Assembly (NCBI GenBank): GCA_017540175.1
Contig: JAFYBN010000003.1
Span: 1-45,196 of the forward strand
DNA from: Clostridia bacterium
Lineage (GTDB): Bacteria; Bacillota; Clostridia; Oscillospirales; CAG-272
Length of the DNA stretch: 45,196 nt
Reading direction: 5' to 3'
Both the position numbers and the translations under genes were made by a program. A model generated the notes under the pieces. That model did not search any database and was not told the origin of the DNA. It was given only the letters and a program-made list of their open reading frames with translations. Positions 7,535 to 41,966 of the stretch are shown here, piece by piece (position 1 is the first letter of the stretch; every line of letters begins with the position of its first letter).

Positions 7535-7670
7535 ATCCGGCGTTTTCCGCGTCGGACGACTCCACCAAAGCGGGGCTGGCATTCGGACTCCCTTCGTTAT
7601 CAAGGTCACCGCTGCGGAACAGCTGCGGATTCGCACCGCATTCCCCGTTTGAGGCACGGACGTAAGAAAA
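7535..7670 (-). promoter_or_regulatory. Cobalamin riboswitch
   Basis: Read on the minus strand, the segment has cggggaatgcggtgcgaatc, cgcagctgttccgcagcggt and then agggagtccgaatgccagcc. These correspond to the conserved core of cobalamin riboswitches: GGGAA...GGTG.AA.TCC, GC.GT.CCGC..C.GT and AGTC.G.A..CC.GCC. It lies in the leader of btuF, about 60 bases before the start codon, and should repress the importer when adenosyl- or related cobalamin is bound. The exact outer boundaries (P1) are approximate. Confidence 0.9.
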
Positions 7671-7795
7671 CCGTACCCCCCGCTCGCTATTCGGTTGGAG
7701 ATTTGGTTGTAATCAGATCGGCGCGCACGATCTGCTCACATCGCCTGAGGGTCGGAATGAATCCCTTTTTCGGGTATCATTGGCTAACCTTCATA

Positions 7796-34062: not shown

Positions 34063-34446
34063 ATGAAAACGATTGAAACCAAAAAAGCGCCCGCGGCGAT
34101 TGGTCCCTATTCGCAGGCGATCGTCACAGGCGGACTGGTCTATACGTCCGGTCAGATACCGATCGATCCGGCCACGGGTCTGATCGAAGCCTCCGGGATC
34201 GAAGAACAGACAAAACAGGTCATCGCGAATCTCGCGGCGGTGCTTGCCGCGGCGAACAGCTCGCTTGACCGCGTCGTCAAGACGACGTGTTTTCTCAAGA
34301 ATATCAGCGATTTCGCCGCATTCAACGCGATCTACGCGCAATACTTCACGGGCAGACCGGCAAGAAGCTGCGTGGAGGTCTGTGCTCTTCCGAAAGACGC
34401 GTTGGTCGAGATCGAGGTCGTCGCGGAAGCGGCGGAAGCGGAATGA
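34063..34446 (+). CDS. ridA: RidA family enamine/imine deaminase
   Basis: 127 residues, the usual size. AAIGPYSQAIVTGGLVYTSGQIPIDP and NLAAVLAAANSSLDRVVKTTCFL, then RSCVEVCALPKDALVEIEVVA match the RidA family, including the catalytic Arg in RSCVEV and the terminal E-I-E-x-V-A. RidA hydrolyses reactive 2-aminoacrylate and other enamines made by PLP enzymes. AAGGAGG precedes the ATG at good spacing. It is transcribed from the consensus promoter at 33765 and followed by tcdA after 57 bp. Confidence 0.95.
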   Translation: MKTIETKKAPAAIGPYSQAIVTGGLVYTSGQIPIDPATGLIEASGIEEQTKQVIANLAAVLAAANSSLDRVVKTTCFLKNISDFAAFNAIYAQYFTGRPARSCVEVCALPKDALVEIEVVAEAAEAE

Positions 34447-34503: not shown

Positions 34504-35286
34504 ATGCTGAACCAATTTTCAAGAACACAGTTGATCTACGGCGCACAGACGATGGAGGCTCTGGCGTCCTCCCGTGTCGCCGTTTTCGGGATCGGCGGCG
34601 TCGGCGGATACGTCGTCGAAGCCCTTGCCCGGTCCGGGATCGGGGCGCTCGATCTGATCGACGACGACCGGGTCTGCCTGACGAACCTCAACCGGCAGAT
34701 CCTCGCCACGAGAAAAACGGTCGGACGGTACAAAGTGGACGCGGCTGAGGAGAGGATCCGGGAAATCAACCCCGCCTGCGAGGTCCGGACCTACAAGACC
34801 TTTTTCCTCCCCCAAACACAGGATCAGTTTGATTTTCGGGAGTACGACTACGTCGTCGACGCGATCGATACGATCTCGGGAAAGCTCGCGATCGTCGTGA
34901 AAGCAAAGGAAGCGGCGGTTCCGGTCATCTCCTCCATGGGGGCGGGAAACAAGGTGAACGCTTCGCTGTTCGAGGTCGCCGACATTTACGAAACCTCCGT
35001 CTGCCCGCTCGCGCGCGTGATGCGGATCGAATGCAGGAAGCGGGGCATCGACTCGCTGAAAGTGGTTTACTCGAAGGAAAAGCCGAAGAAACCGCTTGAG
35101 GATATGTCCATCAGCTGCCGTCAGCACTGCATCTGTCCTCCGGGAACCGCCAGAAAGTGTACCCAGCGCAGGGATATCCCGGGATCGACGGCGTTCGTTC
35201 CTTCCGTTGCCGGATTGATCATCGCGGGGGAGGTCGTGAACGATCTTGCGGGAAGAACGGCGGGCGCCTTCCACTCCGCTCTGTAA
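34504..35286 (+). CDS. tcdA: tRNA threonylcarbamoyladenosine dehydratase
   Basis: 260 residues of the ThiF/E1-like superfamily. FSRTQLIYGAQTMEALASSRV and GIGGVGGYVVEALARSGIG (nucleotide-binding Gly motif), LIDDDRVCLTNLNRQILA, and the late FVPSVAGLIIAGEVVNDL match TcdA (CsdL/YgdL). It makes cyclic t6A at position 37 of ANN-decoding tRNAs using ATP. Cys in SVCPLARVMR and CICPPG are seen; the latter lies near the C-terminal region. RBS AAGGATAAGGG stands before the ATG. Confidence 0.93.
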   Translation: MLNQFSRTQLIYGAQTMEALASSRVAVFGIGGVGGYVVEALARSGIGALDLIDDDRVCLTNLNRQILATRKTVGRYKVDAAEERIREINPACEVRTYKTFFLPQTQDQFDFREYDYVVDAIDTISGKLAIVVKAKEAAVPVISSMGAGNKVNASLFEVADIYETSVCPLARVMRIECRKRGIDSLKVVYSKEKPKKPLEDMSISCRQHCICPPGTARKCTQRRDIPGSTAFVPSVAGLIIAGEVVNDLAGRTAGAFHSAL

Positions 35287-35410
35287 AAACGAGCCTGTCC
35301 GCCCGCATCTTCCAAAGTGCGTTCCATGAAACGGAAAATCCCGCGGCATCCGTTTCATTCTCATAGGATTTCCGTCAGATTTTGCCGCCGCCGCACGGCG
35401 CAGGTTTTTT

Positions 35411-36226
35411 ATGGCATTCAGAAAAGGGGCACCGCCCGGCTTTCACGTCGAGATCATTCCGCCGAAGCAGGATTCGGGGAAACTGGAAGAAGACCTCGAG
35501 CTGTTCGCGTCCAAATTCGAGCGGGTGATGGAAAGCGGATTCACCGCTTCGCTCACCGACAACGCAATGGGGCTTCTCGCGTTTCAGGGGCACGAGTGCA
35601 TCACGGAGCTCGGGCTCCGCGCGCGCCCGGATCAGGTTTTGATCCATCTCAACACCTTCCACACGAAACAAAACCTCGACGACATCCTCGATTCCTGCGA
35701 AAAGCTGGGGATCACTTCGATCCTCGCGATCAGCGGGGACGGCTCCCCCAGACTCCCGAAGCTGAGACCCGCCGACGTGGAGGCGGAAGGAACAGCCTCA
35801 GTCACCTCCGTGGAGTTGACGCGGTACATCCGAAAGCATTACCCGTCCTTCGAGGTCGGCGTTGCCTTCAACCCCTACGAACCGGTGACGCACGAATTTG
35901 AAAAGCTGAAACGAAAGCTCGACGCGGGGGCTTCCTTCGTCATCACGCAGCCGATCATCGAACAAAACGCCGTGGTGGACCGGCTGCTCGCGGAACATCC
36001 CGCCCTGCCGGTGACCGTTGAGGCATGGATGTCGAAAAGGCTGTTTTTGCTTTCGGACGTCGTGGGCTATCCCATCCCGGAGGACGCGGCTTTTGATCCA
36101 ATCGGGACGCTCACGGAGCTCATCGGACTGTACCCGGGGTGCGGTTTCTATCTCTCCCTCCTCGGCTTCAAGACGCAGTACCCGACGATCGAGGAAATGG
36201 CGGCGGAGAGGAGGGACAGCAAATGA
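35411..36226 (+). CDS. metF: Methylenetetrahydrofolate reductase
   Basis: 271 residues. HVEIIPPKQDSGKLEEDLELF carries the catalytic Glu of the first strand; FTASLTDNAMG, then ILAISGDGSPR (FAD-binding region), VGVAFNPYEPVTHEFEKLKRKLDAGASFVITQP (the A-x-F/Q-P-T-Q-P-like late block) fit the MTHFR TIM barrel. It reduces methylene-THF to methyl-THF or works in reverse. It is translationally coupled to etfB by an ATGA overlap and followed by etfA and a methyl-corrinoid:THF methyltransferase, so its electrons probably pass through the Etf. No MetV or RnfC-like partner is in the window. RBS is weak (GCGCAGG). Confidence 0.9.
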   Translation: MAFRKGAPPGFHVEIIPPKQDSGKLEEDLELFASKFERVMESGFTASLTDNAMGLLAFQGHECITELGLRARPDQVLIHLNTFHTKQNLDDILDSCEKLGITSILAISGDGSPRLPKLRPADVEAEGTASVTSVELTRYIRKHYPSFEVGVAFNPYEPVTHEFEKLKRKLDAGASFVITQPIIEQNAVVDRLLAEHPALPVTVEAWMSKRLFLLSDVVGYPIPEDAAFDPIGTLTELIGLYPGCGFYLSLLGFKTQYPTIEEMAAERRDSK

Positions 36227-37029
36227 AAATCCTGGTTTGTGTCAAGCAGGTCCCCGCGACGACCGACGCGAAGATCGATCCCGAAACGAAGCGGATCATC
36301 CGGGAGGGGACGAAATCGGTCCTCAACCCCTTCGATTTGTATGCGATCGAGGAAGCGATCCGCCTCCGCGAAAAGGTCGGCGGCGAGGTATGCGTGCTGT
36401 CGATGGGGCCGGAGAGCGCGAAAAACGTCCTGATCGAGGCGCTGTCCATGGGGGCGGACCGGGCGTTCCTGCTGTGCGGAAGAGAGTTTGCCGGCTCCGA
36501 CACGTGGGCGACGAGCTATGCCCTCTCTAAGGCCGTCGAGACTGTCGGCGGGGTCGACCTCATCCTCTGCGGCAAACAGGCCGTCGACGGGGACACCGCG
36601 CAGGTAGGCCCCGGCATCGCGGCGAAGCTCGAGATCATGCAGGCGGCAAACGTCTCGAAGGTGGAGGAGATCACCGCGGACGCCGTCACGGTTTCCCGCA
36701 TGAACGAGAACGGATTTGACGTGCTGCGTCTGAAGCTGCCCGCCCTGCTCACCGTACTGAAGGACATCAACGAGCCGCGCGTCCCCACCTTGAATAACGC
36801 GCGGAAGGCGAGAACGGCACAAATCACGGTCTGGGGCCCCAAGGATATCGGAGCGGACCCGGAGTTCATCGGTCTGAACGCGTCCCCCACGCGCGTCGTG
36901 AAGACGGAACCTCCCGCCGTGCGGAACACCGTCACCGTGAAGATCGGGGGAGAGCCCGCGGACGCGGCGAAAGCGCTCGTCGGCGAGATGATCGCCCGCG
37001 GGCTGCTCTCTAAGGAGGGGACGGAATGA
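36223..37029 (+). CDS. etfB: Electron transfer flavoprotein beta subunit
   Basis: 268 residues. MKILVCVKQVPATTDAKIDP is the EtfB start; NPFDLYAIEEAIRLRE and LCGKQAVDGDTAQVGPGIAAKL follow. The DGDTAQVGP motif (residues 122-130) is, in my knowledge of the family, the form found in bifurcating Etfs such as those of Clostridia, whereas non-bifurcating AMP-type Etfs have a D-D-D-x-N-Q-T form. LKDINEPRVPTLNNARKA is the later conserved loop. Start ATG 36223 follows GAGAGGAGG and overlaps the metF stop. It should dimerise with EtfA and accept or bifurcate electrons. Confidence 0.93.
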   Translation: MKILVCVKQVPATTDAKIDPETKRIIREGTKSVLNPFDLYAIEEAIRLREKVGGEVCVLSMGPESAKNVLIEALSMGADRAFLLCGREFAGSDTWATSYALSKAVETVGGVDLILCGKQAVDGDTAQVGPGIAAKLEIMQAANVSKVEEITADAVTVSRMNENGFDVLRLKLPALLTVLKDINEPRVPTLNNARKARTAQITVWGPKDIGADPEFIGLNASPTRVVKTEPPAVRNTVTVKIGGEPADAAKALVGEMIARGLLSKEGTE

Positions 37030-38051
37030 AAGTATTTGACGAACTGGACAGAAAGACATACAAGAACGTCTGGACGATTTCGGAATGCGCGGGCGGCGAG
37101 ATTCATCCGGTCTCCTATGAACTGCTCGGCACCGCGCGCAGGCTCGCCGCGGAGAGAGGCGGCGAGGTCTGGACGGTCGCGCTCGGGCGGGGGATCGGCA
37201 CGCAGCTCGAATCGCTGTTTGCCTACGGCGCGGACAAGATCATCGCCGTGGACGACGAGCGGCTCCGGGCGTTCAACGACGAGCTCGAATGCCATATCCT
37301 CGAGAGGCTCGTGGAGAAATACCGCCCCGAGATCATCCTCTGCGCCGCCACAAGCCGCGGACGTGCACTCATCCCCCGCCTTGCGGGCAAGATCCGCGCG
37401 GGACTGACCGCGGACTGCACGGGACTCGCGATCGACCCGGAAAACGGCGATCTGCTCCAGACCCGTCCCGCGTTCGGCGGCAACATCATGGCGACCATCC
37501 GCAGCGGGGAATACCGGCCTCAGATGGCGACGGTGCGGCCGCGCGTGATGCCGATGCCCGAGCCGGAGCCGGGGCGGACCGGAGAAATCCTCCGCGAGAG
37601 CGTGAGACCGGAGGACACGCTGAACATCAAGGAGATCCTCGGGACAATCGAGCGGCATGAGCCTACGGTCAATCTCACCGACGCCCGGATTATCGTCGCC
37701 GGGGGCCGCGCCATGAAGGGACCGGAGGGATTTAGGCTGCTCGAGGCGTTCGCAAACCGGATCGGAGGGGCGGTCGGGGCAAGCCGCGCCGCGGTCGACA
37801 ACGGCTGGATCGCGTATCCGCATCAGATCGGTCAGACCGGCGCGACGGTGCAGACGGACGTGTACATCGCCTGCGGGATCTCGGGCCAGATCCAGCACCT
37901 GATCGGCATGCAGTCCTGCAAGACGATCATCGCCGTCGACGTCGACGACACGACGCCCATGATGAAGCTCGCCGATATCGCCGTGAAGGGCGATCTCTTC
38001 GAGATCATCCCCGCGGTCATGAAGGAACTGGACGAAAGAAACCGCGCATAA
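37026..38051 (+). CDS. etfA: Electron transfer flavoprotein alpha subunit
   Basis: 341 residues. N-terminal Etf domain (about 1-190), then the FAD-binding domain: ARIIVAGGRAMKGPEGF, IGGAVGASRAAVDNGWI, HQIGQTGATVQTDVYIACGISGQIQHLIGM. The usual I-N-K-D-x-x-A-P-I-F near the end is replaced by VDVDDTTPMMKLADIAVKGD. There is no N-terminal ferredoxin-like [4Fe-4S] domain. ATG 37026 overlaps the etfB stop (ATGA). Partner of EtfB; physiological acceptor not shown, and no acyl-CoA dehydrogenase is adjacent, which leaves the MTHFR as the obvious partner. Confidence 0.93.
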   Translation: MKVFDELDRKTYKNVWTISECAGGEIHPVSYELLGTARRLAAERGGEVWTVALGRGIGTQLESLFAYGADKIIAVDDERLRAFNDELECHILERLVEKYRPEIILCAATSRGRALIPRLAGKIRAGLTADCTGLAIDPENGDLLQTRPAFGGNIMATIRSGEYRPQMATVRPRVMPMPEPEPGRTGEILRESVRPEDTLNIKEILGTIERHEPTVNLTDARIIVAGGRAMKGPEGFRLLEAFANRIGGAVGASRAAVDNGWIAYPHQIGQTGATVQTDVYIACGISGQIQHLIGMQSCKTIIAVDVDDTTPMMKLADIAVKGDLFEIIPAVMKELDERNRA

Positions 38052-38109
38052 GCGCGCCTGCCGACAGTTTTCACTATTTATCAAATGAATTCTAAACAAG
38101 GAGTTTGCC

Positions 38110-38916
38110 ATGCTGATCATCGGAGAAAAACTGAACGGAGCCATCAAATCCGTGGCTGAGGCGATCCGGAACCGGGACGGGGCGTTCATTCGCGATCTGG
38201 CCTCGCGCCAGCTCGACAGCCGGGCGGATTATCTCGATGTCTGTTCCGGGGTGCCGGAGGGGGACGCGGACGTACTCAAGTGGATGATCGAGCTCATTCA
38301 AAACGATCACCCCGACGTGCGCTTCAGCCTCGACAGCCCGAACCCCGACACCATCCTCACGTGCATTCCCCTCTGCAAGAATCCGGGCATCATCAATTCG
38401 GTCTCCCTCGAAGGGGACAAGATCGCAAAGATCCTCCCGGCGGTCAGCGGAGAGGAGGGCTGGAAGATCATCGCGCTCCTGCTCGACGAGAGCGGCATGC
38501 CGGAGACGGTGGAGAAGCGGATGGAGAGCTTTCACAGGATCGTGAAGAAGGCGGCGGAATACGGCGTCTCCATGGATCGGTTGTATTTTGATCCCCTGGT
38601 GTTTACGGTTGCCACCTCGCCCGACAGCTTTCTGAATTTCATCGGCGCGTCCCGGAAAATCCGGGAGGAATACCCGGCTGCCCACATCATCAGCGGGCTC
38701 TCCAACATCTCCCATGGGCTCCCGAGCCGGAAGACGCTGAACCACGCGTTCCTGATCGGCGCGATGATGAACGGCATGGACAGCGCGATCATGGATCCCT
38801 TGAACCGCGACATGCTCGGCGGTGTCTATGCCGCGGAGGCGCTGCTCGGGATCGACGAATACTGCATCGAATACCTCTCCGCGTACCGGGAGGACCTCTT
38901 CGGGGTACAGAAATAA
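38110..38916 (+). CDS. Pterin-dependent methyltransferase (methyl-corrinoid:tetrahydrofolate type, MtgA/AcsE-like)
   Basis: 268 residues, a dihydropteroate-synthase-like barrel. MLIIGEKLNGAIKSVAEAI, then ADYLDVCSGVPEGD, FSLDSPNPDTI, INSVSLEGDKI, and IISGLSNISHGLPSRKTLNHAFL with MNGMDSAIMDPLNRDM. These match AcsE and, more closely, the MtgA-type enzymes that transfer methyl groups between a corrinoid protein and THF in quaternary-amine or methoxy demethylation. AAGGAG precedes the ATG; a terminator follows. The corrinoid protein and the primary methyltransferase are not in the window. With metF-etfBA it makes a methyl-branch module. Confidence 0.88.
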   Translation: MLIIGEKLNGAIKSVAEAIRNRDGAFIRDLASRQLDSRADYLDVCSGVPEGDADVLKWMIELIQNDHPDVRFSLDSPNPDTILTCIPLCKNPGIINSVSLEGDKIAKILPAVSGEEGWKIIALLLDESGMPETVEKRMESFHRIVKKAAEYGVSMDRLYFDPLVFTVATSPDSFLNFIGASRKIREEYPAAHIISGLSNISHGLPSRKTLNHAFLIGAMMNGMDSAIMDPLNRDMLGGVYAAEALLGIDEYCIEYLSAYREDLFGVQK

Positions 38917-38933
38917 TCCTGACAAGCCAAACC

Positions 38934-38976
38934 AAAACGCCGTGATTGTTCCCGCCCGGGCATCACGGCGTTTTTC
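38934..38976 (+). terminator. Rho-independent terminator of the metF-etfBA-methyltransferase unit
   Basis: aaaacgccgtgat pairs with atcacggcgtttt around a 15-base loop, followed by ttttt. Confidence 0.9.
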
Positions 38977-39168
38977 TGCGTTCCGCACCGGTGTTCGCGC
39001 CGCGGAGACTTTTTTTAGAAGATCGTATCCCCGCGGCGGCTGCGCGTGACATATGCCACGACGAAAGCTTTGCGCTTTCCCGCGATCCCGTCCGCCTTGC
39101 TCCTCCCCTCTTCTCCGGCGGGGGAGTCCTGTTCCCGTCCATGTTTTTTTCTTTTTTGACCGATGTTC

Positions 39169-39197
39169 TTGACTGTTCCGACGTTTCCCGTTATAAT
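39169..39197 (+). promoter_or_regulatory. Sigma-A promoter of the alginate-lyase-like gene
   Basis: TTGACT (39169-39174), 17 bases, TATAAT (39192-39197). About 110 bases before ATG 39312. The rest of 38977-39311 holds nothing else I can name. Confidence 0.75.
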
Positions 39198-39311
39198 TCA
39201 TTTCGGAATCTTCCGTCAACGAACATTTTTTCGCAAAATGCGGAAAACGCGCCCGCGGCCGCGGAAGAACGTCACGCCGAACGCATCGGGTGGGGAAAGG
39301 ATGGGCTCATC

Positions 39312-41966
39312 ATGGAAAAAACGTGCAGCCAAATCGCGCGCCTTCTCACGGACACCGTGCCCTCGATCCGATCCTTCCGCTCCGCGTCCGGGATCCTGCA
39401 TCCCGGGATCGGGCTGACCAAGGAGATGCTCGGGCGCACCCGCCGTCAGGTCCGCGCACAGATCGAGCCGTGGAGGACGTATTTCCTCGACATGCTCGAA
39501 TCCGACGCCGCCTCCCCGACGCCGGCCTTTGCCCTGACCGATCCCGCTTCCGTGACCTTCTCTTTCCAAAGGGTGAACGGGCTTTTCGTGCGGGACGCGC
39601 TCACGGCATACACCCAGGCGATTCTCTACCTCGTCACCGGATCGGACGCGTACCGGAGAAACAGCCTCACCCTGATCCGCCGCTGGTCGTCGCTCGCTCC
39701 GGCGGAGTTCGCGCCGTTCCCGGACTGCCACATTCACGTCGGGATCCCACTCTGCCGGATCACGGCAGCGGCGGAGCTTCTGCGGTGCGTTTCCTTCGAT
39801 AGGGACGATCCCGCGCTCCGATGGACGGAGGAGGATGAGAAGCGATTTTCGGACAATCTGATCCGCCCCGCCCTTGCGGTCTTTCTCTCCGATCCGAACC
39901 ACTTCATGAACCAGCACCTCTACACGGTGATCGGCGCGATGTCGGCGTATCTCTTCCTCGACGACCGGGCGGGCTATGAGAAGACCGTCGAATGGTTCAC
40001 CGTCAACCGCGCCGCCTCAAATCCCGGCTTCAACGGATCGATCCGCCGCCTGTTCCGGAAAATCACCACCGCGGACGAGCCCGGCAAGCCGGAGGGCAGC
40101 GGACGAGCGCTCGGGACGCCGGTCGTCGAGCACGTCGAAATGGGGCGGGATCAGGCGCATGGCTGCGGGGACCTGACCAATGCGGCGATCCTCGCCCGGA
40201 TGATGCTGGCGCAGGGAACGAAGGTCGATCCCGTGACCGGAGAAGCGTCGCAGAAGCCGGATGCCGTCGGCATCTATGAGTTTGACGGGGAGAGGATCCT
40301 CATGGCGGCGGATTTCTTCTTCCGCTATATGCTCGGCTATTCGTCGAACCGTGACTGGGTCCCCGTGCCGTTTTCCATCCGGGACGGAGTGATCGCCGAC
40401 TGCTACGCCGCCTTTTCGCCGAACTACCGGGGGCGGTACCGGACGATCAATTTCTGGGATCTGTATGTCCATTACGCCTACCGCCGCCCGGACGTGAATC
40501 TCGCCGAGACCGCGCCGTACTTCCTCGAGGGCTTTCGAAAAAAAGTCCCCTCGGTATACCCGTATCGGGGGAAACGGGTGGTGAACTGGGACAATGTGGA
40601 CGGCGGCGGGGATTTCTGGCTCTTTCTGCCCGAAGAGGCGGCGGGAGATCCGGCTCTTCTCGCCCGTCCGCAGAGTGAGGGGACCGTACGCCTCGCCGAT
40701 CGCGCGTCCGCCTGCGAAAACTGCGCCGTGATCCGGGATGAATCCGAAAAGGACGGCGGACTCGTGCGCTTTTCGGGCGAGCGGGGCTGTTTCGCGCTCA
40801 CCGAGGGCGGATGGGACGGGCAGAGCATCGCCTTCCGCTACCGCTCGGACGGGCTCACGCGGCTGACAGTAGGCGGGGTGAAGGAAAGCGTCCTGCTCGC
40901 GCCGACGGGGGGACAGTGGAAAACTGCCGTCGTGCGGCGGGGGGAGGGCGAGGTCTTTGAGGATTTTTATACCGTCTCAGCAGAACAGCTCACCGGTACG
41001 CGGACGGATCTTTCCGCCGTTCTGCTTACACCTTCCGAGGGTCCGCGATTCCTCGAAGGCGACGAAACCCTCGTCCTCTGCGCGGGCATCCCGGCGGTCA
41101 TCCGGAACCCGGTCGAAGGAGCCTCGGCCATCCGGTTCCGCTCCGTCGGCCTGCCGGAGGGCGCGGAGCTGGACGAATCGACCGGAGTGATCCGCTGGAC
41201 TCCCGCGGAGGCCGGAACGCTGACCTTTGCCCTCGCCGCGGAGTCCGGGGAAATTGTTTCCGTCCGACTGATCCGCGCCATGGTCTGCCGGGATTGGGCA
41301 GAGATGCTCGACACCGCCCGGAGTCTCGCGCCGGCCGTCCCCTGCACGAGCCGCTCGGCACGCGCGTTCCGCGAAGCTCTCGAGCGCGCCGAGGCCGCTC
41401 TCGGGTCCCCGTCGGACGAAGACTTTGCCGAACGAATCGCCGCTCTCTGTGCCGCCGCACGCCGGATGGAGCCGCTTTCCCCGCGTCTGACGGACGATCC
41501 GCTGACCGGCGGGGATTCCCTCGACTTTGTGAAAATCACGGCGGACTCCACGATGGGGGACGAGCTGTTCCGGCTCGCCGAAGCGGAGGGGACCTTCTGC
41601 GGATATTACAAGGCGATCGATCGGGCGCATATCATGGACTTCGGCGAAGAATTCCGGCTGAACGCGACGAAATTCGGATTTCAGGCGCGGCCCGGCTTCT
41701 CGGACCGGCTGGCGGGCGTGCAGGTCTTCGGCTCGGCGGACCGGGAAAACTGGATCCGGCTGACGGAGCATGAGGCGGCGTTCACGCAGGAGTATCAGGA
41801 GATCCCGGTGCGAAAAGAGCTCACGGACCTCCCCGTCCGGTATCTGATGATCCGCAAGACGGCGGAATATCCGGACGCCCTGCGCGGAAGCGTTCACGGA
41901 CTGCTCGAATTCAGCGTCCTGCGCGTCTTCGGGGAGAGGCTGGAAACCGGGGAGGGCGGCGTCTGA
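39312..41966 (+). CDS. Alginate-lyase-like (alpha/alpha) toroid protein with C-terminal beta domains
   Basis: 884 residues from ATG 39312. The N-terminal 350 residues resemble alginate-lyase / heparinase-type (alpha/alpha) toroids: LHPGIGLTKEMLGRTRRQV, then SDPNHFMNQHLYTVIGAMSAYLFL (like the N-N-H-x-x-x-x-x-x-Q catalytic block), and VEHVEMGRDQAHGCGDLTN, which resembles the GRD/H motif with the catalytic His/Tyr region. After about 500, GLPEGAELDESTGVIRWTPAEAG is a putative Ig-type (He_PIG) repeat and the final 140 residues recall a discoidin-like sugar-binding fold. No signal peptide is visible, which is odd for a lyase with such domains. GGGGAAAGG precedes the ATG. The substrate is likely a uronic-acid-containing polymer fragment. 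Confidence 0.65.
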   Translation: MEKTCSQIARLLTDTVPSIRSFRSASGILHPGIGLTKEMLGRTRRQVRAQIEPWRTYFLDMLESDAASPTPAFALTDPASVTFSFQRVNGLFVRDALTAYTQAILYLVTGSDAYRRNSLTLIRRWSSLAPAEFAPFPDCHIHVGIPLCRITAAAELLRCVSFDRDDPALRWTEEDEKRFSDNLIRPALAVFLSDPNHFMNQHLYTVIGAMSAYLFLDDRAGYEKTVEWFTVNRAASNPGFNGSIRRLFRKITTADEPGKPEGSGRALGTPVVEHVEMGRDQAHGCGDLTNAAILARMMLAQGTKVDPVTGEASQKPDAVGIYEFDGERILMAADFFFRYMLGYSSNRDWVPVPFSIRDGVIADCYAAFSPNYRGRYRTINFWDLYVHYAYRRPDVNLAETAPYFLEGFRKKVPSVYPYRGKRVVNWDNVDGGGDFWLFLPEEAAGDPALLARPQSEGTVRLADRASACENCAVIRDESEKDGGLVRFSGERGCFALTEGGWDGQSIAFRYRSDGLTRLTVGGVKESVLLAPTGGQWKTAVVRRGEGEVFEDFYTVSAEQLTGTRTDLSAVLLTPSEGPRFLEGDETLVLCAGIPAVIRNPVEGASAIRFRSVGLPEGAELDESTGVIRWTPAEAGTLTFALAAESGEIVSVRLIRAMVCRDWAEMLDTARSLAPAVPCTSRSARAFREALERAEAALGSPSDEDFAERIAALCAAARRMEPLSPRLTDDPLTGGDSLDFVKITADSTMGDELFRLAEAEGTFCGYYKAIDRAHIMDFGEEFRLNATKFGFQARPGFSDRLAGVQVFGSADRENWIRLTEHEAAFTQEYQEIPVRKELTDLPVRYLMIRKTAEYPDALRGSVHGLLEFSVLRVFGERLETGEGGV

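Follow-up and report, generated by a model that had tools for sequence, protein, structure and literature searches.

How does a bacterial methylene-tetrahydrofolate reductase (MTHFR) receive its electrons when its gene is followed by those of an electron transfer flavoprotein (Etf)? The question is raised by a cluster at positions 35411–38916 of a 45,196-nucleotide stretch of contig JAFYBN010000003.1 from a Clostridia bacterium (assembly GCA_017540175.1; the whole stretch is called the window below), where metF, etfB, etfA and a methyltransferase gene all lie on the + strand. The original prediction, made from the letters of the window alone, described four co-directional genes with ATGA at the first two junctions, and its coordinates proved exact.

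The literature cited here by PubMed Central (PMC) number is represented by excerpts, and what we draw from it extends as far as those excerpts. Four types of MTHFR are recognized in acetogens (PMC8760232) and five groups in bacteria (PMC8515935), and none of those described there works with EtfAB; the published classes have no partner, or MetV, RnfC2, HdrABC-MvhD or NuoEFG. An EtfAB couple was once proposed for the Clostridium ljungdahlii enzyme and judged unlikely, because each etfAB set of that organism has another neighbour (PMC8515935). A survey of bifurcating enzymes names Bcd, Car, Ldh and Fix as the enzymes that work with Etf, and pairs MetF with HdrABC (PMC6085437), another study describes a metF-HdrABC neighbour pair with the bifurcating-type etfAB located separately (PMC10553843), and the excerpts of PMC2702500 and PMC13391211 contain no metF-etf link. 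Searches of the open-licence PMC literature listed no paper on a metF-etfBA cluster. The view that an Etf would differ from the known partners MetV, HdrABC-MvhD and RnfC2 is thus upheld as far as these sources go, and by sequence MetF-EtfBA appears to be a conserved form of MTHFR that none of these published classes includes, with a dedicated Etf of bifurcating type. The cluster consists of the following features.

35411..36226, + strand: metF, compact methylene-THF (THF, tetrahydrofolate) reductase-like protein, 271 amino acids, PF02219
36223..36226, + strand: metF/etfB ATGA overlap; a 4-nt overlap occurs in 20 of 35 distinct cassettes
36223..37029, + strand: etfB, Etf beta subunit of the bifurcating sequence class, 268 amino acids
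37026..37029, + strand: etfB/etfA ATGA overlap, read from the sequence
37026..38051, + strand: etfA, Etf alpha subunit without an N-terminal ferredoxin domain, 341 amino acids
38110..38916, + strand: mtgA-like methyl-THF:corrinoid methyltransferase gene, 268 amino acids, PRK07535

Conservation of the metF-etf linkage

Our main set of loci (n = 33) comprises the window and 32 loci from a contig scan with two short MetF peptides (86 pattern matches), a scan that reaches near relatives only. Many of the 32 come from metagenome-assembled genomes (MAGs) of rumen or other gut Clostridia and one from a MAG labelled Abditibacteriota; within the family of the window genome, this MetF occurs in 3 of 196 genomes, the window genome included. 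EtfB follows MetF directly in 30 of the 33 loci. In the other three, a cyclodeaminase gene takes its place (L032), the contig ends inside metF (L036) or only a metF fragment is present (L037). EtfA comes next in 28 of the 30, the remaining two being contig ends, and among these 28 the mtgA-like gene is located downstream in 25 and upstream in two, with a contig end in one. Otherwise no flanking gene recurs, except among near relatives. Together with L114 and L127–L130, found by other searches, the window and 29 loci of the scan make up 35 distinct cassettes (the 38-row table of overlaps holds three repeats, L099, L100 and L126, the last being the DNA of L013), so the adjacency is not unique to this genome.

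A search with EtfA alone, which is not biased by MetF, gave matches in 80 of 196 genomes of the class, and 30 loci were inspected; partial matches of 64–67% in G654, G710 and G684 fall outside these. All six EtfA of 61–100% identity have MetF upstream (the window's own, L126 and L127–L130, the last four being new cassettes). Beside the 24 EtfA of 42–50% identity no MetF was seen, where the sequence on view extends a few hundred bases upstream of EtfB; three of these loci (L133, L138 and L145) are cut inside EtfB at a contig end, so that MetF would not be visible. The metF-etfBA linkage is not due to chance. Across 398 genomes from the phylum, a profile search returned six MetF matches, namely the window's own, L114 and four distant relatives (L115–L118).

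In 25 of the 33 carriers no ETF domains were found other than the two beside MetF. Of the other eight, G216, G223 and G227 have four ETF domains each, G205 and G212 have one, only a fragment was found in G226 and nothing in G222, and G208 has its second domain where another contig begins. One MTHFR per genome was found in 31 carriers, and none in G226 and G227. On the EtfA tree, a single clade with support of 100/100 unites 29 MetF-linked rows, of which 28 are distinct. The linked EtfA of L099/L100 groups instead with an unlinked Etf from its own genome, G223 (100/100), and a single clade for all MetF-linked EtfA, a group defined by linkage and not taken from the tree, is rejected (approximately unbiased test, p-AU 1e-16). 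On the MetF tree, L099/L100 and the Etf-less L032 are nested among Etf-linked MetF (97/95). The simplest history would therefore be an old MetF-Etf link that was lost in this branch, L099/L100 later gaining another Etf.

In L114 (G513), MetF and EtfB are one open reading frame (ORF) of 535 amino acids that matches both PF02219 and PF01012; its junction has no stop, and the sole ATG, GTG or TTG codon there is a GTG inside the EtfB start. Apparent EtfB-EtfA fusions in L021, L127, L128 and L142 were rejected, as BLAST pieces had been extended across a stop codon. The conserved linkage, the sole Etf pair in 25 carriers, the MetF-EtfB fusion and the replacement by a second Etf bear out the proposal that the Etf is MetF's partner, and EtfBA is likely to be its dedicated electron partner.

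Several observations concern the cassette and its surroundings. The gap between etfA and the mtgA-like gene is 58 nt. Upstream of metF are a ThiF-like gene (34504–35286) and a Rid-family gene (34063–34446), and downstream of the cluster is a 1006-amino-acid ORF (38946–41966) whose sole match, to He_PIG, is below threshold. A scan of 34900–39100 yielded no promoter-like sites, and its five terminator-like sites are about equal to the 4.1 +/- 2.0 of shuffled sequence. The Abditibacteriota-labelled MAG (L026, G216) has a full cassette 77–78% identical to that of the window, which may reflect transfer or mis-binning. At L028 (961–2562), a resolvase domain (PF00239) and MetF form one 533-amino-acid ORF, by chance, mis-assembly or as a sign of mobility. 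The MetF fragment of L037 (5688–5966) comes from G227, a genome with no MTHFR match and two Etf pairs elsewhere.

Sequence classes of the Etf, MetF and methyltransferase

EtfB matches PF01012 (151.7 bits), and EtfA matches PF01012 (147.2 bits) and PF00766 (113.7 bits). The closest solved relatives of EtfB are CarD, the EtfB of 7koe, LctB and the proteins of Clostridium difficile (5ol2) and A. fermentans (4kpu), at 217–190 bits with the next at 107 or less; those of EtfA are the alpha subunits of the CarDE, 7koe, LctBC, 5ol2 and 4kpu Etfs, at 299–227 bits with the next at 134 or less. For both subunits, human, Paracoccus and Methylophilus-type entries lie well behind. The source organisms of the solved Etfs and their division into bifurcating and non-bifurcating are in part our assumption and in part as given in PMC9232219. 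Models for Acr-type Etfs gave 198 and 276 bits against EtfBA, below their cut-offs of 475 and 600.

Alignment places the residues associated with bifurcation as follows, with functions of the EtfB motifs from PMC9232219.

36481..36495, + strand: EtfB R87-E-F-A-G91, the NAD-site motif RxFxG
36586..36612, + strand: EtfB D122–P130, DGDTAQVGP, the b-FAD motif, absent in non-bifurcating Etfs according to PMC9232219
36883..36891, + strand: EtfB S221–T223, the SPT anchor motif
37464..37466, + strand: EtfA R147 codon, aligned to LctC R205, which hydrogen-bonds N5 of b-FAD

In the lactate dehydrogenase complex Ldh-EtfAB, mutants show that DGDTAQVGP, RxFxG and SPT of EtfB and R205 of EtfA are needed for confurcation and bifurcation, which LctC R205A abolishes (PMC9232219). 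All four are present in the window, so that EtfBA belongs to the bifurcating class as judged from its residues, and the suggestion that this Etf may bifurcate stands at the level of sequence class. Ldh-EtfAB of Acetobacterium woodii (LctBCD) thus resembles MetF-EtfBA in its b-FAD, NAD and SPT motifs and N5 arginine, with acceptor couples of -190 against -200 mV, and differs in that an MTHFR-family protein here replaces the lactate dehydrogenase flavoprotein and that EtfA has no ferredoxin domain. The EtfA alignment starts at residue 64–66 of CarE and LctC, so that their ferredoxin domain is missing here. The EtfB recognition loop was considered as a MetF-specific signature and none is clear, the 12 clade-specific positions being mostly outside the loop.

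MetF matches PF02219 at 57.9 bits (cut-off 24) over residues 12–185 only, and TIGR00676 at 48.3 bits, far below the cut-off of 293.7, over residues 13–181. By the Pfam cut-off and its catalytic motifs it is a member of the MTHFR superfamily, with predicted reductase activity, and it appears distant from canonical type I enzymes. E14 (HVEIIPPK), D110 (SGDG; GD109-110) and Q180 (ITQ178-180) align with the E..PPK, GD and ITQ/VTQ motifs of solved MTHFRs, and these motifs are invariant or nearly so in a 32-row MetF alignment. We take E14 to be the equivalent of the canonical catalytic Glu, and D110 presumably that of the folate-contacting Asp.

35450..35452, + strand: MetF E14 codon, aligned to solved MTHFRs and invariant in the 32-row alignment
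35738..35740, + strand: MetF D110 codon, aligned to solved MTHFRs and invariant in the 32-row alignment

In the searches made, solved MTHFRs gave no alignment to the C-terminal third of MetF. We do not claim it as an Etf dock, as the Etf-less L115–L118 share this third by eye. Like the type I MTHFRs of E. coli and Blautia, the protein is a single MetF with no MetV beside it; type I enzymes use NAD(P)H directly, whereas this MetF falls far short of the TIGR00676 cut-off and has its C-terminal third unaligned. No metV gene, the mark of MetFV types II–IV, is present beside metF at this locus, whose neighbours are ThiF-like, EtfB, EtfA and MtgA (the rest of the genome was not searched for metV). 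The type IV MetFV-HdrABC-MvhD of Moorella thermoacetica is similar in that its MTHFR is proposed to bifurcate NADH electrons through a separate flavoprotein module; it uses MetV and HdrA, whereas neither gene is beside metF here and the module is EtfBA.

The fourth gene was predicted to encode a methyltransferase of the type that acts between methyl-THF and a corrinoid protein, and this assignment is supported. The protein reaches 285.3 bits against PRK07535 (cut-off 259) and 56.1 bits against PF00809, and its best solved relative is 4o0q (253 bits), ahead of corrinoid/iron-sulfur protein methyltransferases (122–135 bits). Entry 4o0q, whose database title reads only 'Dihydropteroate synthase DHPS', is presumably MtgA of the Desulfitobacterium hafniense betaine system. 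By sequence the product is classed as MtgA-type. It is not assigned to AcsE of the carbon monoxide dehydrogenase/acetyl-CoA synthase (ACS) system, as it scores 113.9 bits against a cut-off of 370 for NF040758 and no ACS was found in the genome.

Fate of the methyl group

Demethylation of methylated compounds linked to energy metabolism had been suggested as the role of the cluster. As the main role this is not favoured by the gene content of the carriers. No ACS (PF03598) was found in any of the 33, a count whose sensitivity to bacterial ACS depends on our assumption that PF03598 also covers it, since the 14 ACS control genomes matched only in two archaea. One small corrinoid protein (B12-binding_2) was found in 29 of 33 carriers; its open frames of 153–259 amino acids mean that none is of MetH size. 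A homocysteine S-methyltransferase (S-methyl_trans) is present in 28 of 33, with open frames of 201–463 amino acids, and MetE gave a single match at its cut-off, 19.9 bits. The corrinoid activator RACo was found in 32 of 33 carriers (in G220 and G224 just as fragments); 86 of 196 genomes of the family have it. Compared with family non-carriers (83/193) this is an enrichment with Fisher p 8.5e-10, calculated with shared ancestry ignored and from sets drawn differently. As a family-wide marker of the cassette RACo was rejected; since 86 of 196 genomes have it and 3 of 196 this MetF, it is no predictor. The corrinoid gene is within 5 kb of RACo in 18 of 29 genomes, and within 5 kb of S-methyl_trans in six of the 27 with both (G000, G200, G211, G212, G213 and G227).

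In the window genome, separate PF02574, PF00809 and PF02607/PF02310 proteins are found with a RACo/RamA-like activator and without MetH or MetE, the gene set predicted for a split B12-dependent methionine synthase. The corrinoid gene of this genome is on a separate contig (C49), where its neighbours encode RACo, a DUF2284 protein, a homocysteine S-methyltransferase and two URO-D-like proteins; conserved flanking corrinoid genes were rejected as a feature of the cassette, as none recur. The corrinoid protein is MtgC-like, at 208.5 bits against NF047996, below the cut-off of 370. At L098 (7374–7955, - strand), a DUF2284 metal-binding protein is encoded between the corrinoid protein and RACo genes, with BLAST relatives in eight other corrinoid loci.

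A split methionine synthase with a RamA-like activator has a precedent in Phaeobacter (PMC5764234). The Phaeobacter inhibens system, whose core is shared with Ruegeria (MtgCDE), has separate pterin, corrinoid and homocysteine modules and such an activator, as here. It differs in that the excerpts mention no Etf-linked MetF, whereas here the pterin module is inside the metF-etfBA cluster. MtgA-like and MtgC-like proteins are likewise common to the cluster's genome and the glycine betaine system MtgABC of D. hafniense; no MtgB/MttB-type gene is known here, where no search was aimed at MttB. With separate methionine synthase modules, and neither ACS nor a MetH-sized corrinoid protein, biosynthesis is favoured, and split B12-dependent methionine synthesis would be the most likely methyl sink, fitting better than methyl catabolism. 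In Ruegeria this core is also used to demethylate glycine betaine (PMC12478193), so the URO-D-like proteins may serve a catabolic arm.

Some neighbouring elements touch on corrinoid and one-carbon supply. The window has a cobalamin riboswitch (RF00174, 49 bits, 7557–7695, - strand) 27 nt upstream of a periplasmic-binding-protein gene (PF01497, 6258–7529, - strand), which is followed by a FecCD-type permease gene (PF01032, 5221–6381, - strand); these are probable corrinoid uptake genes. THF riboswitches of ~89 bits are present at L033 (12302–12398) and L034 (12294–12390), downstream of a stretch with MtgA, formyltetrahydrofolate synthetase (FTHFS), MetF, Etf and cyclodeaminase genes. At L030 (6006–6878), a formate/nitrite transporter gene (PF01226, 271 bits) between etfA and mtgA hints at formate-derived one-carbon flow.

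Proposed mechanism and alternatives

We consider it probable, by a modest degree, that MetF-EtfBA is an Etf-dependent methylene-THF reductase that feeds a split B12-dependent methionine synthase. In this scheme NADH would pass a hydride to b-FAD in EtfB, and the mobile a-FAD of EtfA would carry electrons to the MetF flavin, which would reduce methylene-THF to methyl-THF. EtfBA keeps every residue of the bifurcating set, so that ferredoxin may receive the second electron (2 NADH + CH2-THF + Fdox -> 2 NAD+ + CH3-THF + Fdred), and the reverse reaction would be confurcation as in Ldh-EtfAB. From methyl-THF, MtgA would then transfer the methyl group to the one MtgC-like corrinoid protein of the genome, which RACo would keep in the reduced state, and the stand-alone homocysteine S-methyltransferase would make methionine. 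Complex formation, the electron path, bifurcation, the direction of the reaction and the corrinoid protein as methyl acceptor are all what we infer from the genes. Coupling of MetF to EtfBA is likely and bifurcation possible. Reduction of ferredoxin coupled to NADH-driven methylene-THF reduction, and its reverse, in gut Clostridia without detected ACS is a proposal that we hold tentatively, at somewhat less than even chances; a reaction of this kind was proposed for the Moorella enzyme, at ~ -5 kJ/mol (Buckel and Thauer, PMC5861303).

Several observations weigh against this reading. EtfA is without the ferredoxin domain that Ldh-EtfAB needs, although CarCDE does without it, and a close Etf from C. 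propionicum is reported to be non-bifurcating (PMC9232219); for both reasons the motifs are no proof of bifurcation. Within the clade the motifs have exceptions (VGA for VGP in L021 and L024, K for R87 in L030, L for F89 in L130, and a broken frame in L017), and the second Etf lineage (L099/L100) is without R87 of the NAD motif. In L032, MetF lies between FTHFS and a cyclodeaminase gene with no adjoining Etf, in a genome with no detected ETF domain. L115–L118 have no Etf within 1.5 kb of MetF (L118 is cut upstream), and Etf dependence is therefore not general in the wider MetF family; FTHFS is beside MetF in L115 (by Pfam) and in L116 and L117 (read by eye). The MetF-EtfB fusion occurs in one genome only, where a base error could remove a stop, and the carriers found with the two peptides are MAGs. 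On the methionine side, URO-D-like proteins occur in corrinoid clusters (of the 15 corrinoid loci examined, 8 hold BLAST relatives, and four proteins were confirmed by Pfam), the ACS controls matched as narrowly as described, no S-adenosylmethionine or T-box riboswitch was above threshold in 34 loci and the window, and the window's one cobalamin riboswitch is 28 kb from the cassette.

The strongest alternative, which we rate about as highly as bifurcation itself and still short of even chances, is that EtfBA does not bifurcate and acts as an adaptor, oxidising NADH for a MetF that has no NADH site itself; ferredoxin would play no part. The C. propionicum precedent, the missing ferredoxin domain and the sub-cut-off matches to Acr-type Etfs are consistent with it, as is the fact that reduction of methylene-THF by NADH is already exergonic by ~23 kJ/mol (PMC13391211). 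Retention of the residues needed for confurcation and bifurcation in Ldh-EtfAB argues the other way. So does the Bcd-EtfAB of C. difficile (5ol2), which likewise has no ferredoxin domain and which we take to bifurcate.

Less likely, at perhaps half the weight or a little more, is a catabolic module in which methyltransferases, URO-D-like or other, load the corrinoid protein, MtgA transfers the methyl group to THF, and MetF-EtfBA oxidises methyl-THF by confurcation with reduced ferredoxin, in the way that Ldh-EtfAB oxidises lactate. It is suggested by the closeness of MtgA to 4o0q, the MtgC-like corrinoid protein and the URO-D-like proteins adjoining its gene, by the match between the methyl-THF and lactate couples (-190 mV against -200 mV; PMC8578096, PMC8515935), and by Ruegeria, where a single MtgC/MtgD pair works in demethylation as well as in methionine synthesis (PMC12478193). 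Against this stand the failure to find ACS in any of the 33 carriers and the presence of the separate methionine synthase modules where no full synthase is found. No methyl-substrate gene recurs beside the cassette, though no search was aimed at MttB, and FTHFS is confirmed only at L032 and L100 among the carriers, for which no genome-wide search was made.

We regard it as improbable that the genes are merely co-regulated, EtfBA serving another dehydrogenase and MetF using NADH or ferredoxin alone. The missing Etf beside MetF in L032 and the distant relatives would accord with this explanation, whereas clade-wide linkage amid unrelated flanks, a MetF-specific Etf clade, the fused ORF and the replacement of one Etf by another do not. 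A Wood-Ljungdahl methyl branch of an acetogen, to which L033/L034 with MtgA, MetF, EtfBA and cyclodeaminase genes in one stretch and the FTHFS of L100 (the same genome as L033) might point, is very improbable and disfavoured by the absence of PF03598 from all 33 carriers, even with control matches in two archaea only.

Whether methylene-THF reduction conserves energy has been debated since 1977 and is unproven (PMC8578096, PMC8760232). The cassette supplies the gene arrangement that was missing for an MTHFR-EtfAB couple, and as its proteins are compact and could be co-expressed, the question of energy conservation becomes directly testable. If the preferred reading of MetF-EtfBA is true, an MTHFR-family enzyme would join the known partners of Etf; if the enzyme bifurcates as well, the reaction proposed for acetogen MTHFRs, but undemonstrated there in the sources cited, would occur in gut Clostridia without detected ACS.

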